Source: Chromatiales bacterium
GTDB taxonomy: Bacteria > Pseudomonadota > Gammaproteobacteria > Thiohalomonadales > Thiohalomonadaceae
Reading direction: 5' to 3'
Assembly: GCA_029879245.1 (NCBI GenBank)
Contig: JAOUQQ010000014.1
Coordinates: forward strand, 1 to 34,996
DNA: 34,996 bases
In this document: piece by piece, positions 5,962 to 12,312 of the stretch
Position numbering within the stretch: the stretch's first letter is position 1
Layout: each line of letters starts with the position of its first letter
The notes under the pieces: generated by a model
Seen by the model: the letters and a program-made list of their open reading frames with translations, nothing else
The model's database searches: none
What the model was told of the DNA's origin: nothing
Translations under genes and position numbers: made by a program

Positions 5962-6807
5962 GTGTCAATTGAAGCAGGTACACTTTATATAGTAGCCACA
6001 CCAATCGGCAACCTGGGGGATATCTCTGCTCGTGCCCTGGAGGTGCTGCAGCGGGTAGACCGCATTGCCGCCGAGGATACCCGCCACAGCGCCTCGCTGC
6101 TGCGCCACTTCCACATCGACACCCCGATGTTCGCCCTGCACGAGCACAACGAGCGGCAGAAGGCGGAGCAGGTGCTGGGCTACCTGCAACAGGGGGAGTC
6201 GGTGGCCCTGATCTCCGATGCAGGTACCCCCCTCATCAGCGACCCCGGTTACTTCCTGGTGCGCCAGGCCCATGCCTCTGGCATCAAGGTGGTGCCGCTA
6301 CCCGGCCCCAGCGCCCTCATCGCCGCCCTCTCGGCCTCTGGGTTGGCGACAGACCGCTTCTGCTTCGAGGGCTTCCTCCCCGCTAAGTCGGGGCCACGCC
6401 GCCGTGCGCTGGAGGCACTGTCCGCCGAACCCCGTACCCTCGCCTTTTACGAGACCCCCCACCGCATTGAAGAGAGCCTTAAGGATATGGCAGCGATTTT
6501 GGGTGAGGCTCGTCCCGCCACCCTCGCCCGCGAGCTGACCAAGACCTTCGAGACCATCCGCCACGCCACTCTGGGAGAGCTGGCCGAGTGGGTCGCAGAT
6601 GATGCCAACCAGCGCAAGGGGGAGTTCGTGGTGCTGGTCGAGGGTGCCCCGGCGAAGGAGAACGAGGGGCTGGATGGCGAGACCCAGCGCATTGCCAGGA
6701 TGCTGGCAGAAGAGCTGTCGATCAAACAGGCCGCGGCGCTGGCGGCGAAGATTAGTGGTGAGAAGAAGAACGCGATTTACAACTATCTGTTGAGCGTTTT
6801 ACGTTGA
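5962..6807 (+). CDS. rsmI: 16S rRNA (cytidine1402-2'-O)-methyltransferase
   Basis: The 281-residue protein is a tetrapyrrole-methylase-fold enzyme with the RsmI motifs [57 protein letters not shown] and FYETPHRI. RsmI methylates the 2'-OH of C1402 in the decoding centre of 16S rRNA, together with the N4 methyltransferase RsmH, which is also encoded in this window. The start is a GTG at 5962 preceded by GAGGTGAG; the conserved N-terminus begins nine codons later, so no longer form is needed. The divergent partner is lpoA, the usual arrangement in gammaproteobacteria. No intrinsic terminator is evident after the stop. Confidence 0.96.
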
Positions 6808-6862
6808 AGATCACTCTCACCCGTATTTTTCAATGAAGTTGATATAGAGGAGCCTCGAGCCA

Positions 6863-6889
6863 TTTACATTCCGTCGCCAATGATATAAT
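6863..6889 (+). promoter_or_regulatory. Probable sigma70 promoter of the secreted coiled-coil protein gene
   Basis: A perfect TATAAT at 6884-6889 is preceded by TGA, forming an extended -10 element (TGNTATAAT). TTTACA at 6863-6868 gives a -35 with a short 15-base spacer, which an extended -10 can tolerate. A second TATAAT at 6916-6921 has no good -35. The leader to the ATG at 6958 would be about 60 bases. Confidence 0.5.
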
Positions 6890-6957
6890 GTGTGCGCCGC
6901 ATCACAAATTCAAAATATAATTATTGACATATATTGAAAATATTTCAGGGAGAAAAC

Positions 6958-8103
6958 ATGAGTTCCATAAAATATGTTACTACAGTATGCCTTGCTCTAG
7001 GTGTTCTATCTGCCCCGGTCTTTGCAGCAAATGGTAAACCCTTCCAGGAGTTACAGGCGCAGATTGATGCCAATCTGGCCTTGATACAGGCTAACACAGG
7101 CGCGATTGCAGGATTGACGCTTAATATTGATGAGATTAATGCGAAGATTGATGCTACTGATGTCAGGATAACCGCACTTGAACTTGACGTTGCCAACAAT
7201 AGTGCCAGTATCGCCGCAGCGCTTGATCGCATCACCATGGCAGAGGGTGATATTCAGGCCCTCTATGCGGAACTGAGCGGGCTTGCTGCGCAGCATACAA
7301 GCGACATAGTCGCCGTCAACCTTGCGCTGGATGCAATCGCTATTGAGCTGGCAAACCTGCACAATCTGCGTCAAGCTCTGGCAGAGAGCCTGAATGCTCA
7401 AATCTCCGAGTTGTCAGTCGCGGTCAGCCAGAACAGCTCTGATATCAATGCCGCAACACTGCAACTGCTGATGGTGAACGCGCAACTTACCTCGATCAAC
7501 AGCAGTATCATCGACCTGCAGAACCGTCATGCCACCCTGGAAAAGACCCAGAGCACACAAGCCGAGGCGCTGGCGATGTTGGAGTCGCGTGTGACAGCTC
7601 TTGAAGGTGCCGTCGATACCCTGTTTGGTTTCCATCTCTATACCTTTTCGGGTATTCAAACAGATCTGGCCGTTGACAACTTGAACGGCTGGTCGGAGTG
7701 TTACAGCACCAGCTATGCAGATATGATTGCGCATCCTGAGGCGATGGAGGCGGCCTGTACCGGCAATAAAATTATGCTCGCATGTCGTCCCACTGGGAGT
7801 GATGTGTTGACGGTGGCGGCCCATGCTAATCGCGAGGATGTCTTCTTTGTCACCGGCGATGGTGGCAACGTGGTGCACAATGCTAACGGTGTTGACTGGT
7901 ATTTCTCCTACAACTATTCGATGGGCTTTGCGCCTGAGGGCGAAGGGGTGATGAGAACCTCTGCCGATACCCAGAACATGGGCAGCCCGTTACGTCTCAG
8001 CTGGCATACCCATGATCATTACACCGGTGGCTGGCGTTGTGGGAGCAGTGTAGGGCTGAATTATAACGGTGCATGGGAGAAGGTGATCTATCAGGCTGAT
8101 TAA
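6958..8103 (+). CDS. Secreted coiled-coil protein with unrecognised Cys-containing C-terminal domain
   Basis: The 381-residue protein starts at the ATG at 6958, eight codons inside the longest frame, with AGGGAGA six bases upstream. It opens with a Sec signal peptide (MSSIKYVTTVCLALGVLSAP, cleavage after VFA, about residue 23). Residues about 28-220 form a long heptad-patterned region rich in Ala, Leu, Ile, Asn and Ser with few charges (for example INAKIDATDVRITALELDV), like a fibrous stalk. From about residue 223 a compact domain begins with cysteines at 248, 267, 276 and 361 and many aromatic residues (NGWSECY, MLACRPTGSDVL, NGVDWYFSY, GGWRCGSS, EKVIYQAD). The cysteines could form two disulphides. 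I do not recognise a named family and infer only export and probable trimeric or fibrous assembly. The gene has its own promoter and terminator and lies in lower-GC DNA than its neighbours, consistent with acquisition. Confidence 0.85.
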   Translation: MSSIKYVTTVCLALGVLSAPVFAANGKPFQELQAQIDANLALIQANTGAIAGLTLNIDEINAKIDATDVRITALELDVANNSASIAAALDRITMAEGDIQALYAELSGLAAQHTSDIVAVNLALDAIAIELANLHNLRQALAESLNAQISELSVAVSQNSSDINAATLQLLMVNAQLTSINSSIIDLQNRHATLEKTQSTQAEALAMLESRVTALEGAVDTLFGFHLYTFSGIQTDLAVDNLNGWSECYSTSYADMIAHPEAMEAACTGNKIMLACRPTGSDVLTVAAHANREDVFFVTGDGGNVVHNANGVDWYFSYNYSMGFAPEGEGVMRTSADTQNMGSPLRLSWHTHDHYTGGWRCGSSVGLNYNGAWEKVIYQAD

Positions 8104-8126
8104 GCCGTGTAGCTCTTGATTGAGAG

Positions 8127-8157
8127 AAGGCCGGATAATCCCGGCCTTTTCTTTTTT
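8127..8157 (+). terminator. Intrinsic terminator of the coiled-coil protein gene
   Basis: An eight-base GC-rich stem AAGGCCGG / CCGGCCTT with a six-base loop (ATAATC) is followed by TTCTTTTTT, 24 bases after the stop codon. This is a textbook rho-independent terminator on the plus strand. Confidence 0.92.
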
Positions 8158-8447
8158 GCACTGGCATACGCCAAACCTGAGACCAACATCATCGGTACAT
8201 TGTTGGCGCGTTTGAACAGTTCGCACACCTCATTTTTCCCTTCTACAGATAGAGTTTTCAACACAATCTTTGAGCACCAGGTTCATCTGCGTATAGCCCT
8301 CTTCTATGGCGTCAAGCGAGGCGAAGGGGATAGCAAAGCCCGAAAAATGCTCCTTGTGAATCAACTTGGTTGAGCCCGTGCTCAGCCCGTAGGTACGACT
8401 AGCAGCAGCGTAATCGTACGCATGCAAACAACCACACAGCCACATTC

Positions 8448-8473
8448 GTCCGATTACGCTGCGCTAATCGGAC
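8448..8473. repeat. Palindromic intergenic repeat
   Basis: Nine-base arms GTCCGATTA / TAATCGGAC flank the loop CGCTGCGC. A diverged relative of one arm plus loop occurs 40 bases to the left in the opposite orientation (GCAGCGTAATCGTACG, 8406-8421). The sequence resembles a dispersed intergenic palindrome seen in several gammaproteobacterial genomes, which is a recollection and not verified. It lies just after the ABC ATPase stop codon and could fold in that mRNA, but no T-run follows on the minus strand. Confidence 0.55.
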
Positions 8474-8495
8474 CTGCGCCGCTGAGGCTACCCAA

Positions 8496-9542
8496 CTACC
8501 TCGCCGGAAACAGCGCAATATCCTCCACATCCAACCTGATCCCAATCCGCTCGCCAATTCTATGGTGGTGATGGCTCTGTACCAGACAAAGGATCGGCTG
8601 GCCGCTGGGCAGCGCCAGGGTGTAGAGATATTCGGCACCGCGAAAGGCCCTCTCCTTCACCTCCAGCTTTAGCTCACTCTCATCGTCGTGCAGCACATCG
8701 TCGGGGCGCAGCAGCAGTTCGATCTCACAACCGGGTTTGCACCCCAGTGGCAGTTTTCCCTCAATGGTCCCCAGCTCGGTATCGATGGCGAGTGCCTCGC
8801 TGACTTTTCCCGGTAGCATTACCCCCTGGCCGATAAAGTCGGCGACGAAGCGGCTCTGTGGTTTGTGGTAGATGTTGTAGCCGCTGTCCCACTGGTGCAG
8901 GCGCCCCTCGCCAACCACACCGATGACATCGGCCATGGCGAAGGCCTCCAACTGGTCGTGGGTGACGAGGATGGCGGTAATGCCGTCACGTTTGAGCAGC
9001 TCGCGCACCTCGCGCGCCAGCTGCTCGCGCAGCTCGGTGTCGAGGCTGGAGAAGGGCTCGTCCATTAACAGGATATCGGGGCGCGGAGCCATAGCGCGGA
9101 TCAGGGCGATGCGCTGTTGCTGACCGCCGGAGAGCTGGTGGGGGTGGGCCTCTTTGAGGTGTGCCAGGCCGACCAGTTGCAGCAGTTCATTGACGCGGGC
9201 ATCGCGTTGCCCGGCATCCATCTTTTTCAGGCCGAAGGCGACGTTTTTCGCCACGCTGAGGTGGGGGAACAGGGCGAAGTCCTGAAACACCATGCCGACG
9301 CGGCGTTGCTCGGTGGGTACACTGTTGCCCGGTTGTGATACCAGCTGTTCATTAAGGTGGATCTCGCCATGACTCACCGGCTCGAAACCGGCGATGGCAC
9401 GCAGCAGCGAGGTCTTGCCACAACCACTGGGGCCGAGCAGGCAGCCGATCTCGCCGGGCTGTAACGACAGGCTGACCTCCTTGATCACGGTGTTGCCATC
9501 ATAGGCGACGGCGACATCCTTGAGTTCCAGTTCGGTTTTCAT
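8496..9542 (-). CDS. fbpC: Ferric iron ABC transporter, ATP-binding protein
   Basis: The 348-residue protein has every element of an ABC ATPase: Walker A GPSGCGKT (37-44), Q-loop VFQDFALFPHL, signature LSGGQQQR (137-144), Walker B DILLMDE (156-162) and switch histidine 195 (LVTHDQLEAF). A C-terminal part of about 110 residues has the TOBE-type form of the Fbp/Pot/Cys importers (LLLRPDDVLHDDES). Partners are the permease and ferric-binding protein encoded just upstream on the same strand. The ATG overlaps the permease stop as ATGA, so translation is coupled. Substrate assignment as iron depends mainly on the binding protein and the upstream Fur-like site. Confidence 0.92.
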   Translation of the reverse strand: MKTELELKDVAVAYDGNTVIKEVSLSLQPGEIGCLLGPSGCGKTSLLRAIAGFEPVSHGEIHLNEQLVSQPGNSVPTEQRRVGMVFQDFALFPHLSVAKNVAFGLKKMDAGQRDARVNELLQLVGLAHLKEAHPHQLSGGQQQRIALIRAMAPRPDILLMDEPFSSLDTELREQLAREVRELLKRDGITAILVTHDQLEAFAMADVIGVVGEGRLHQWDSGYNIYHKPQSRFVADFIGQGVMLPGKVSEALAIDTELGTIEGKLPLGCKPGCEIELLLRPDDVLHDDESELKLEVKERAFRGAEYLYTLALPSGQPILCLVQSHHHHRIGERIGIRLDVEDIALFPAR

Positions 9543-11170
9543 TTTTTCTCCTCACGGCTTTGTGAGAGGGAGCGGCTTAACAGGATCACCGGGATCAGAC
9601 CGGCGATAACGATGGCCAGTGCGGCGCTGGCGGCATCGGCCAGGCGCTCGTCGGCAGCCAGCTCGTAGGCGCGCACCGCCAGGGTATTAAAATTAAATGG
9701 TCGCAGGATTAGCGTTGCCGGTAACTCTTTTAAGACATCGACGAACACCAACAGCAGTGCGGTAATCAGGCTGCCCTTGAGCATCGGGATGTGGATGCGA
9801 CCGAGGATCGCGGCGGGGCGCTCGCCCATGGCGCGGGCCGCCTCGTCCATCGAGGGGGTGATGCGCTCCAGTCCGCTCTCCACCGCGTGCAGCGAGACGG
9901 CGAGAAAGCGCACTAAATAGGCGAATAGCAGGGCGGCGAGTGTGCCGCTTAATAGCAGCCCGGTGGAGATGTCGAACTGCTCGCGCATCCAACTATCCAG
10001 CGTATTGTCGAACCAGCCGAAGGGGATCACCACACCGACGGCGATCACCGTGCCGGGGATGGCATAACCCATACCTGCGGCGCGCACAGCGAAGCGTACG
10101 GTACGATTCGGCTGCAGACGCCGTGCGTAGTTGAGCAGCAACGCGGTGATAAGCGCCAGCAGCGAGGCGAGCACGGCCAGCTCCAGGGTGTGGAACACCA
10201 GAGTGGCGAAACGCTGATCGATCATCTCCTCATAGGTGTCGATGGCCCAGAGGCCAAGCTGGCCTGCAGGCAGCAGAAACCCGAACAGCAGCGTGGCAAG
10301 ACAGAACAGGGTAGCACTTAGCCGTCCCCATCCGTGTAGCGGCAGGCGGGTGAGTGAGGACTTACCTCGCCCGCTGTCGTGGTAGCGTGCCTGGCGGCGT
10401 GAGTAGCGCTCCAGCGTCACCAGTACCACCACGAACAGCAGCAGGATCGCCGCCAGTTGCGCCGCCGCCGGGGCATTGTCCAGTCCGTACCAGGTGCGGA
10501 AGATGCCGGTGGTGAAGGTGTCGACACCGAAGTACTGCACCGTGCCGTAGTCGGCCAGGGTCTCCATCAATACCAGAGATAGCCCGGCGGCGATGGCGGG
10601 ACGGGCCAGCGGCAGGCCGACCGAGAAGAAGGTGCGCCAGGGGCCGTTGCCGAGTGAACGGCTCACCTCCAGCACGCAGAGTGACTGGCTGAGGAAGGCG
10701 GCGCGGGCCAGCAGGTAGATGTAGGGGTAGAGCACCAGGGCGAGCATGATCGCCGCCCCTTCAAGCGAGCGTACCTCCGGGAACCAGTAGTCGCCGTAGC
10801 CCCAGCCGGTCAGCTCGCGCAGGGTGGTCTGCACCGGCCCGGCGAAGTCGAGCATGCCGGTGTAGGTGTAGGCGATGATGTAGGCGGGGATCGCCATTGG
10901 CAGTAGCAGTGCCCACTCGAATACCCGACGCCCTGGGAATTCGGTCATCGACACCAGCCAGGCGGTGCCGACCCCGAGGGTGAGGCTGATGATGGCCACG
11001 CCCACCATCAGCAACAGCGAGTTGACCACATAGTCGCGCAGTACCGTCTCGGCCAGGTGCTGCCACACCTCACCGGCGGGGACGAAGATATTCGCCACTA
11101 CAACGAACAGCGGGATCGCCAGGATAAGGGCGATCCCGCTGCTGCTAATGGACCAGTAATTAACGCGCAT
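9539..11170 (-). CDS. fbpB: Ferric iron ABC transporter, fused inner-membrane permease
   Basis: The 543-residue protein is very hydrophobic, with about twelve membrane segments in two homologous halves, each a binding-protein-dependent permease domain. The ATPase-docking (EAA-type) loops are EVSRSLGNGPWRTFFSVGLP in the first half and DEAARAMGERPAAILGRIH in the second. A fused double permease of this length is typical of the FbpB/SfuB ferric importers. It starts at ATG 11170, nine bases after the binding-protein stop codon, with no strong ribosome-binding site in between, and overlaps the ATPase gene at its end. Confidence 0.93.
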   Translation of the reverse strand: MRVNYWSISSSGIALILAIPLFVVVANIFVPAGEVWQHLAETVLRDYVVNSLLLMVGVAIISLTLGVGTAWLVSMTEFPGRRVFEWALLLPMAIPAYIIAYTYTGMLDFAGPVQTTLRELTGWGYGDYWFPEVRSLEGAAIMLALVLYPYIYLLARAAFLSQSLCVLEVSRSLGNGPWRTFFSVGLPLARPAIAAGLSLVLMETLADYGTVQYFGVDTFTTGIFRTWYGLDNAPAAAQLAAILLLFVVVLVTLERYSRRQARYHDSGRGKSSLTRLPLHGWGRLSATLFCLATLLFGFLLPAGQLGLWAIDTYEEMIDQRFATLVFHTLELAVLASLLALITALLLNYARRLQPNRTVRFAVRAAGMGYAIPGTVIAVGVVIPFGWFDNTLDSWMREQFDISTGLLLSGTLAALLFAYLVRFLAVSLHAVESGLERITPSMDEAARAMGERPAAILGRIHIPMLKGSLITALLLVFVDVLKELPATLILRPFNFNTLAVRAYELAADERLADAASAALAIVIAGLIPVILLSRSLSQSREEKK

Positions 11171-11179
11171 CGGCTGGGG

Positions 11180-12199
11180 TTAGCGCCACCCGGCGCGGTC
11201 CATCAGCATCACCGCCTCGGCGTTGAGTTCACCCAGTTGACCGAGATTGAGGGTATCGGCCTTGAATTCGCCCCACCCCTTGAGGATGTCGCCCACGGCA
11301 ACCCCAGCGCGTACCGGGTATTCGCCGTTGACCTCGGCGTACCACTGTTGCGAGGCCTCGGAGACGAGGAACTCGAGCAGCTTCACCGCAGCGCCGGGAT
11401 TCTTGCTTGAGCGGGTGATCGCCGCCCCGGAGATGTTCACATGGGCGCCACGGCCATTTTGATTAGGCCAGAACACCGCCATCTTACTGGCGGCATCTAC
11501 CTGATCGCTCTCACTGGAGTTGAGCATCCCCGCTAGATAGTAGGTGTTGGCGATGGCGATATCGCACTGGCCGGAGGCGGCGGCCTTTATCTGGTCACGA
11601 TCCCCCCCCTTGGGCGGCAGCGCCAGGTTGGCGACCAGCCCTTTTGCCCATTTTTCTGTCTCGGCCTCGCCGTTGGCGGCGATCATCGAGGCGATCAGAG
11701 ACTGGTTATAGATATTGGAGGAGGAGCGGATGCAGATCCGCCCTTTCCACTTAGCATCGCTCAGCGCTTCGTAGCTGGAGAGCTCTGATGGTTCGACCTT
11801 ACCCTTTACATAGAGGATGGGGCGCGAGCGCACGGAGAGCCCCACCCAGTGGCCCTGCGGGTCGCGGTAATTGGCGGGGACCACCTTGTCGAGCAGCTCC
11901 GAGCTGAAGGGCTGGGTCACCCCGGCCTCCACGGCGCGGTGCAGGCGACCGGCATCGGTGGTGAGAAGGAGATCGGCGGGGGAGTTGCGCCCCTCGCTCT
12001 TCAGCCGCTTGAGCAGGGCATCGGCCTTGCCGGTGACCAGGTTGACCTTAATCCCCGTCTGCTCGGTAAAGCGCTCCAGCAGCGGCTGGATCAGCGCCTC
12101 GTTGCGGGCGGAGTAGAGGTTGAGCTCGGGGGCGGCAGCGGTCTGGGCCGACAGACCAAGACCCAGCAGCAGGAGGATGGAGCGGTGGATGAGTGACAT
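11180..12199 (-). CDS. fbpA: Periplasmic ferric-iron-binding protein of an ABC importer
   Basis: The 339-residue protein has a signal peptide (ILLLLGLGLSAQTAAA, cleavage near residue 23) and the two-lobed iron-binding fold of the FbpA/FutA group. The mature protein opens with ELNLYSARNE. Tyrosines 29, 164 (SNIYNQSL), 220 and 221 (ANTYYLAG) sit where members of this family bind Fe(III). A Thr/Asp-rich ADLLLTTDAGRLHRA segment and GQCDIAIANTYY are typical. A GAGGA lies about seven bases before the ATG at 12199. It is the first gene of the fbpA-fbpB-fbpC unit, and a Fur-box-like site lies 43 bases upstream, so iron-repressed expression is likely. Confidence 0.93.
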   Translation of the reverse strand: MSLIHRSILLLLGLGLSAQTAAAPELNLYSARNEALIQPLLERFTEQTGIKVNLVTGKADALLKRLKSEGRNSPADLLLTTDAGRLHRAVEAGVTQPFSSELLDKVVPANYRDPQGHWVGLSVRSRPILYVKGKVEPSELSSYEALSDAKWKGRICIRSSSNIYNQSLIASMIAANGEAETEKWAKGLVANLALPPKGGDRDQIKAAASGQCDIAIANTYYLAGMLNSSESDQVDAASKMAVFWPNQNGRGAHVNISGAAITRSSKNPGAAVKLLEFLVSEASQQWYAEVNGEYPVRAGVAVGDILKGWGEFKADTLNLGQLGELNAEAVMLMDRAGWR

Positions 12200-12241
12200 C
12201 GGGAATCCTCAAGAAGATAATGAATTGATAGAAGTGTAAAT

Positions 12242-12260
12242 GATAATGATTCGCAATAGC
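12242..12260 (-). promoter_or_regulatory. Fur-box-like operator upstream of fbpA
   Basis: The 19 bases GATAATGATTCGCAATAGC (plus strand) match the classical Fur consensus at 15 of 19 positions by hand alignment; the half GATAATGATT is nearly perfect. The site is 43-61 bases before the fbpA ATG, where the promoter should be. Iron-loaded Fur would therefore shut off the transporter. Confidence 0.72.
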
Positions 12261-12312
12261 AAGAAAAGATTCGGTGAGAGCCAGCCGTGAATCTCAGAAT
12301 ATGAATAAGTTG

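Follow-up and report, generated by a model that had tools for sequence, protein, structure and literature searches.

A gene at positions 6958 to 8103 of the forward strand of the DNA analysed here (the window, 34,996 nucleotides) has an ATG start and encodes a protein of 381 amino acids, which we read with moderate confidence as an exported, probably homotrimeric stalk-and-head binding protein. As judged from alignments, its head is a member of an unnamed but widespread family of bacterial secreted domains that usually carry six cysteines. In the mechanism that we propose, the protein would cross the inner membrane by the Sec route, the stalk would trimerise with Asn at core positions d and Ile, Val or Leu at a, and the head would fold and form its disulfides in the periplasm. 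The trimer would then be released or displayed outside via the type II secretion system, and three heads on a rod of about 29 nm (195 residues at 0.15 nm) would bind one ligand with avidity. Our best guess for the putative ligand is a glycan or other surface polymer, because of the secreted multi-module context of the head family and the lectin-like second structural neighbour of the head.

The gene, its signals and export

Upstream of the gene is a promoter-like site (6863-6889, forward strand), where TTTACA (6863-6868) is followed at a spacing of 15 by an extended -10 element, TGATATAAT (6881-6889), which reads TG-A-TATAAT. An earlier note on this DNA had claimed an extended -10 promoter for the gene, and the sequence bears this out; our consensus promoter scanner missed the site because it permits spacings of 16-18 only. 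A ribosome-binding site, AGGGAG (6947-6952, forward strand), lies 5 nt 5′ of the ATG. The strong terminator that had also been proposed is seen by folding, as a terminator-like hairpin followed by a T run (8122-8153, forward strand) in a stretch, 8108-8165, that folds at -24.9 kcal/mol (z -4.25); the scanner listed no terminator. A further claim, that the GC content is below that of the neighbours, holds locally: blocks of 600 bases give 0.47-0.54 across the gene, 0.665 immediately upstream and 0.59 immediately downstream. GC is, however, equally low at 30-33 kb of the window.

The signal peptide that was expected from the sequence probably comprises residues 1-23 (6958-7026, forward strand). 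Read by eye from the translation, it has Lys5, a hydrophobic stretch and a VFA|AN cleavage motif, and Sec-type leaders are also present in both orthologues, from 005FR1 (L009) and Enterovibrio (L021). A lipobox cysteine after the leader is absent, the sole leader cysteine being residue 11 and the mature N terminus having none. Scans with Pfam and NCBIfam found no C-terminal membrane anchor barrel profile in the protein, whose chain ends with the head, and it showed no sign of an anchor, a partner or a type II signal. The type II secretin GspD scores above its curated cut-off in the genomes of the window and of the two orthologues. It is also present in a same-genus genome (G001) that is without the stalk-and-head gene, and therefore GspD is only permissive for type II release. 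The protein may be located at the cell surface.

The coiled-coil stalk

The stalk, residues 25-219 (7030-7614, forward strand), is a coiled coil of about 195 residues, recognized from its periodicity, its heptads, the structural model and the orthologues; it starts with NG[KQ]PF in all three proteins. The suggestion of about 190 residues of low-charge heptads fits these data well. Hydrophobic periodicity peaks at 3.52 residues and its score at 3.45-3.6 exceeds that of 2000 out of 2000 shuffles, the heptad score reaches 85, whereas 100 shuffles do not go beyond 56, and 196 residues contain just 8 K/R and 24 D/E. Position a of the core is mostly I/L/V and position d mostly L, with five Asn, and there are register breaks near residues 110 and 142.

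Five Asn at core d are found in each of the three orthologues, a generic count that in L021 is weakly above chance (346/5000 shuffles reach it). The more specific motif [IV]xxN[TS]xx[IV] occurs three times in the window stalk, which none of 5000 shuffles achieved, and once each in L009 and L021, where 167 and 240 of 5000 shuffles reached the count. Compared with the window protein, the L021 protein has exactly one extra heptad (7 residues), placed just before the head. Asn triads at position d are reported to recur in trimeric coiled coils and to coordinate chloride there (PMC12933892), and an N@d layer is described in work on trimeric autotransporters (PMC4786415). The Asn at core d of the stalk thus suggest a trimer and, because these come together with the [IV]xxN[TS]xx[IV] heptads and the one-heptad insertion in L021, a trimer is likely.

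The family libraries (Pfam, NCBIfam and PHROGs) match the stalk only, and non-specifically, e.g. with SMC and crescentin. No match to the stalk was found in phages, and its N terminus was found in the window only among 185 class genomes. One match to a Macrococcoides plasmid (E 2e-5) was taken as generic coiled coil.

The head domain and its family

The head, residues 221-381 (7618-8100, forward strand), was delimited from homologues, alignment and model. Its 161 residues include four cysteines (248, 267, 276 and 361) and 21 F/W/Y, in keeping with the aromatic, Cys-containing C-terminal domain of about 155 residues in the earlier note. That note knew of no named family for this domain; this stands for Pfam, NCBIfam and PDB-sequence searches, but the head is no orphan, as it belongs to the unnamed family described here. 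No description of the family was found in the open-access literature that was searched.

Scanning 84,980 species with a degenerate pattern in three parts yielded 32 loci. Of these, 25 code for a clear homologue of the head, which is 32-72 per cent identical to that of the window; the other seven (L008, L010, L012, L020, L023, L031 and L037) encode no homologue and were set aside. The resulting head alignment (A1) has 38 heads, a 38-residue fragment in L038 being omitted, and 13 further heads from a profile search of ten genomes, not chosen by the pattern, bring the total to 51. Conservation at W-Y, G-F-A and W-R-C-G is partly forced since the pattern required these residues. This bias is evident at position 359, W in the pattern, which is Y in 11 of the 13 pattern-independent heads. 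The same 13 heads all have six cysteines, N310, S321, D337, R346 and R360, with H350 in 12 of them. The invariant residues that the window head shares with the family are C248, C267, C276, C361, G300, N310, Y315, S321, G323, F324, D337, G358 and G362. Its match to the full-length A1 profile (E 3.0e-62) includes the window head itself as one of the 38 rows, and single-sequence tblastn finds L009 at E 4e-77 and L021 at E 2e-58.

Closer to home, searches by single sequence and by profile, which ran from the genus to the phylum, detected the head in the window genome alone; they covered 56 relatives, 398 genomes from the phylum, 321 from the class and 20 from the family, sets that overlap and that each include the window genome. 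Four same-class matches (L003-L006, E 0.001-0.009) are short chance alignments, some of them across stop codons.

Most family members carry the head without a coiled coil. The survey of head carriers that had been proposed earlier found one to four heads per protein, joined to TSP_3, DUF4215, MopE or DUF11 repeats either before or behind, which is the make-up of extracellular modules. Such named extracellular repeats are present in seven of the ten relatives scanned (out of 27 open frames), and three of the ten have none. The head occurs up to 15 times in Myxococcota genomes, with 15 copies in one Myxococcales genome, and this suggests that a fair number of unannotated myxobacterial secreted proteins could now be grouped. 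The family, which now has an alignment of 51 members, six cysteines that are diagnostic, a confidently modelled head and a fold hypothesis open to testing, is new to the copies of Pfam and NCBIfam used here. Conservation is 72.5 and 54.7 per cent in the head versus 45.6 and 20.6 per cent in the stalk, as expected if the head binds and the rod is a spacer.

Several family members have features of their own. A 1864-aa Myxococcota protein (L027:1394-6985) has one head, 11 matches to MopE-type repeats and, at its N terminus, a Fibrinogen_C fragment. Two adjoining Myxococcota open frames (L018:1181-6942) encode two heads each, with an extra cysteine pair at head positions 79/85, and the L018 frame that was scanned has TSP_3 repeats as well. 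The head in a metagenome-assembled genome labelled Rhizobium (B101_concoct.bin.4) is almost identical to that of Arenimonas malthae (L022/L030), possibly through binning contamination.

A lost cysteine pair

Residues 336 to 348 (7963-8001, forward strand) distinguish the window head from most of the 51 aligned heads. In 48 of them Cys occupies positions 336 and 348; the remaining three, i.e. the window, 005FR1 and Enterovibrio proteins, have A and S there. These are also the three stalk-bearing heads. In the tree they are a single clade (100/99) that lies within the six-cysteine heads, and the loss was therefore probably a single event in this subfamily. Since both cysteines were lost together, the simplest reading is that 336 and 348 form a disulfide in the six-cysteine heads; the paired loss predicts one disulfide ahead of any solved structure. 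In or beside the same segment are the invariant D337 (51/51 heads) and the near-invariant R346 and H350 (50/51 each), whose conservation extends to the clade that is without the neighbouring cysteine pair.

Predicted structure and likeness to TLDc domains

A prediction of the head alone, as had been suggested earlier, gave a confident AlphaFold model (pLDDT 91.1, pTM 0.88). The full-length model, built from 3 rows, is weak, with a pLDDT of 59 and a pTM of 0.35; it consists of a near-continuous helix over residues 29-232 (helices 29-158 and 161-232) and then a beta-rich head. Together with the strong heptads and the one-heptad insertion, this agrees with the stalk-plus-head plan that was first put forward from the sequence.

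Neither the PDB (best E 0.26, with no TLDc domain in the top 50) nor a set of viral models (prob 0.20 at the best E, 0.032) gave a significant Foldseek match to the head model. When the structures were realigned, however, the top 8 entries were all TLDc domains (PF07534; a domain of OXR1, NCOA7, Skywalker/TBC1D24 and mEAK-7), which occur in proteins of animals and yeast, with Z 5.3-6.1 over 111-127 of the 161 residues at an rmsd of 3.4-4.6 A, though a structural Z below 8 may reflect a common arrangement and values of about 6 are often reached by unrelated models. The next entries were intelectin-type lectins (Z 3.3-3.5, 120-128 residues). This realignment covers Foldseek's top chains, and PDB families that are absent from that list are thereby not excluded. 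The gap in Z and the uniform top rows favour a real likeness of the modelled head to TLDc, the first structural hypothesis for an unnamed family, while a comparison of sequence profiles gives it no support.

It is possible, though on balance doubtful, that the head truly shares ancestry with the eukaryotic TLDc domain, as a divergent homologue, and is not a look-alike fold, a reading that is compatible with each of the functional readings weighed below. Besides the uniform realignment, the separate, low-confidence full-length model has a TLDc chain as its top Foldseek match (6r82, E 0.17, prob 0.35), which is not significant. Against homology, there is no detectable sequence similarity: PF07534 matches neither the window protein nor any of the 38 heads at E <= 1, and a profile comparison of head and TLDc gave a probability of 0.2 per cent, with only three TLDc rows. 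Furthermore, the Z of the realignment is within reach of unrelated models, the head model had no TLDc domain among its top 50 Foldseek matches, and the list from realignment of the full-length model was filled by helical matches to the stalk. The two groups also differ in setting. The TLDc proteins in the literature consulted are eukaryotic and several bind the V-ATPase (PMC8608904); the window head is presumably exported and probably disulfide-bonded. A search for PF07534 in 203 class genomes gave no match, and was uninformative because control profiles also matched nowhere; no TLDc relatives were confirmed in viral contigs. The PDB profile matches of A1 (9l08 at E 0.00058, CwlV and LytH) are partial, involve unrelated proteins and were rejected as spurious, and no single stretch of the 9l08 match passes alone.

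In a broader and rather unlikely scenario, the head family would represent a branch of the TLDc fold that is bacterial, extracellular and stabilised by disulfides. It would have multiplied in Myxococcota and then been passed on to the gammaproteobacteria, one lineage of which placed it on a trimeric rod and dropped the third disulfide. If this were true, the V-ATPase-binding eukaryotic domain would gain a prokaryotic extracellular relative, and a sizeable class of secreted binding modules, so far without a name, would come into view.

Alternative explanations

The nearest published precedent for the plan of the protein is SadB, and for this reason a periplasmic role in assembly is our first rival, though an unlikely one. 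The protein would be a trimeric chaperone or assembly factor that stays in the envelope and helps an exported client to fold or trimerise. According to the SadB report (PMC3953254), the SadB/YajI periplasmic lipoproteins have a coiled coil followed by a beta-sandwich head, and SadB crystallised as a trimer with a head that resembles eukaryotic MATH domains at a DALI Z of 5.8-6.2 without sequence similarity, a parallel to the TLDc likeness seen here. From the same text, SadB is a lipoprotein with a MATH-like head and a far shorter stalk, of 18 core residues per chain, and is encoded with its autotransporter client. The window protein, on the other hand, has no cysteine at the leader cleavage site, its gene has promoter-like and terminator-like elements of its own, no obvious client gene lies alongside in the three genomes, and most of the scanned relatives bear extracellular repeats instead. 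The alternative that the head is an extracellular enzyme on a spacer rod, e.g. a polysaccharide hydrolase, strikes us as improbable. D337, R346 and H350 could have a catalytic role given their conservation pattern, but no enzyme family rises above chance in Pfam or NCBIfam, no confident PDB match was found by sequence or by fold, and up to four head copies per protein are more typical of binding modules.

The exported, probably trimeric binding protein that we prefer also invites comparison with other known systems. Trimeric autotransporter adhesins share Asn at core d (the N@d layer; PMC4786415) and the stalk-plus-head logic; the window protein, however, reverses their order, has no C-terminal membrane anchor and ends with the head. 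Intelectins and fibrinogen-related lectins match the predicted head weakly, less well than TLDc does, and the Fibrinogen_C profile has no Pfam match in the 38 heads. A phage tail fibre was also considered and rejected. The PHROGs tail-needle match to the coiled coil (E 5.4e-6) is non-specific, since coiled coils cross-match, as the SMC and crescentin matches illustrate. The head itself has no match in phages (tblastn), in viral contigs (a single protein and two patterns) or in plasmids searched with the L014 head, so there is no sign of a tail fibre; a 40-residue plasmid match to the head (E 1) lies inside an MFS gene and was discarded.

The locus

The earlier placement of the gene between rsmI and an iron transporter is correct, both neighbours being confirmed by Pfam. 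The gene and the iron-type ABC transporter (ATPase, permease and binding protein; 8496-12199, reverse strand) make up an insert of about 5.5 kb (6798-12302) between rsmI and rnpB, as seen by genome comparison. In the same-genus genome G001 the stalk-and-head gene is absent and rsmI is directly followed by rnpB, about 50 bp away; the distance is 75-174 bp in four other same-family genomes. Two of the seven regions fetched, G009 (= L083) and G763 (= L084, the 005FR1 genome), contain neither rnpB nor mraZ over about 9 kb downstream of rsmI. Both orthologues have neighbours different from those in the window. Given the absence of the insert in G001 and these differing neighbours, the gene is accessory and was probably transferred. 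No integrase gene was seen in the insert, whose junctions show no clear direct repeat.

Between the gene and the transporter there is a REP-like perfect palindrome (8448-8473) with a half-copy at 8405-8424, present once in the window; as single-stranded DNA, positions 8395-8475 fold with a z of -6.5. An integron attC site was weighed for the hairpin at 8404-8466 and dismissed, since the hairpin is a REP-like palindrome without the core ends typical of attC. The same interval holds a 71-aa open frame (8230-8445, reverse strand) without a Pfam match, which is possibly a remnant. The Enterovibrio orthologue has, roughly 1 kb upstream, a gene for a 749-aa protein (L021:2444-4693) with a sub-threshold CHAT-protease match.
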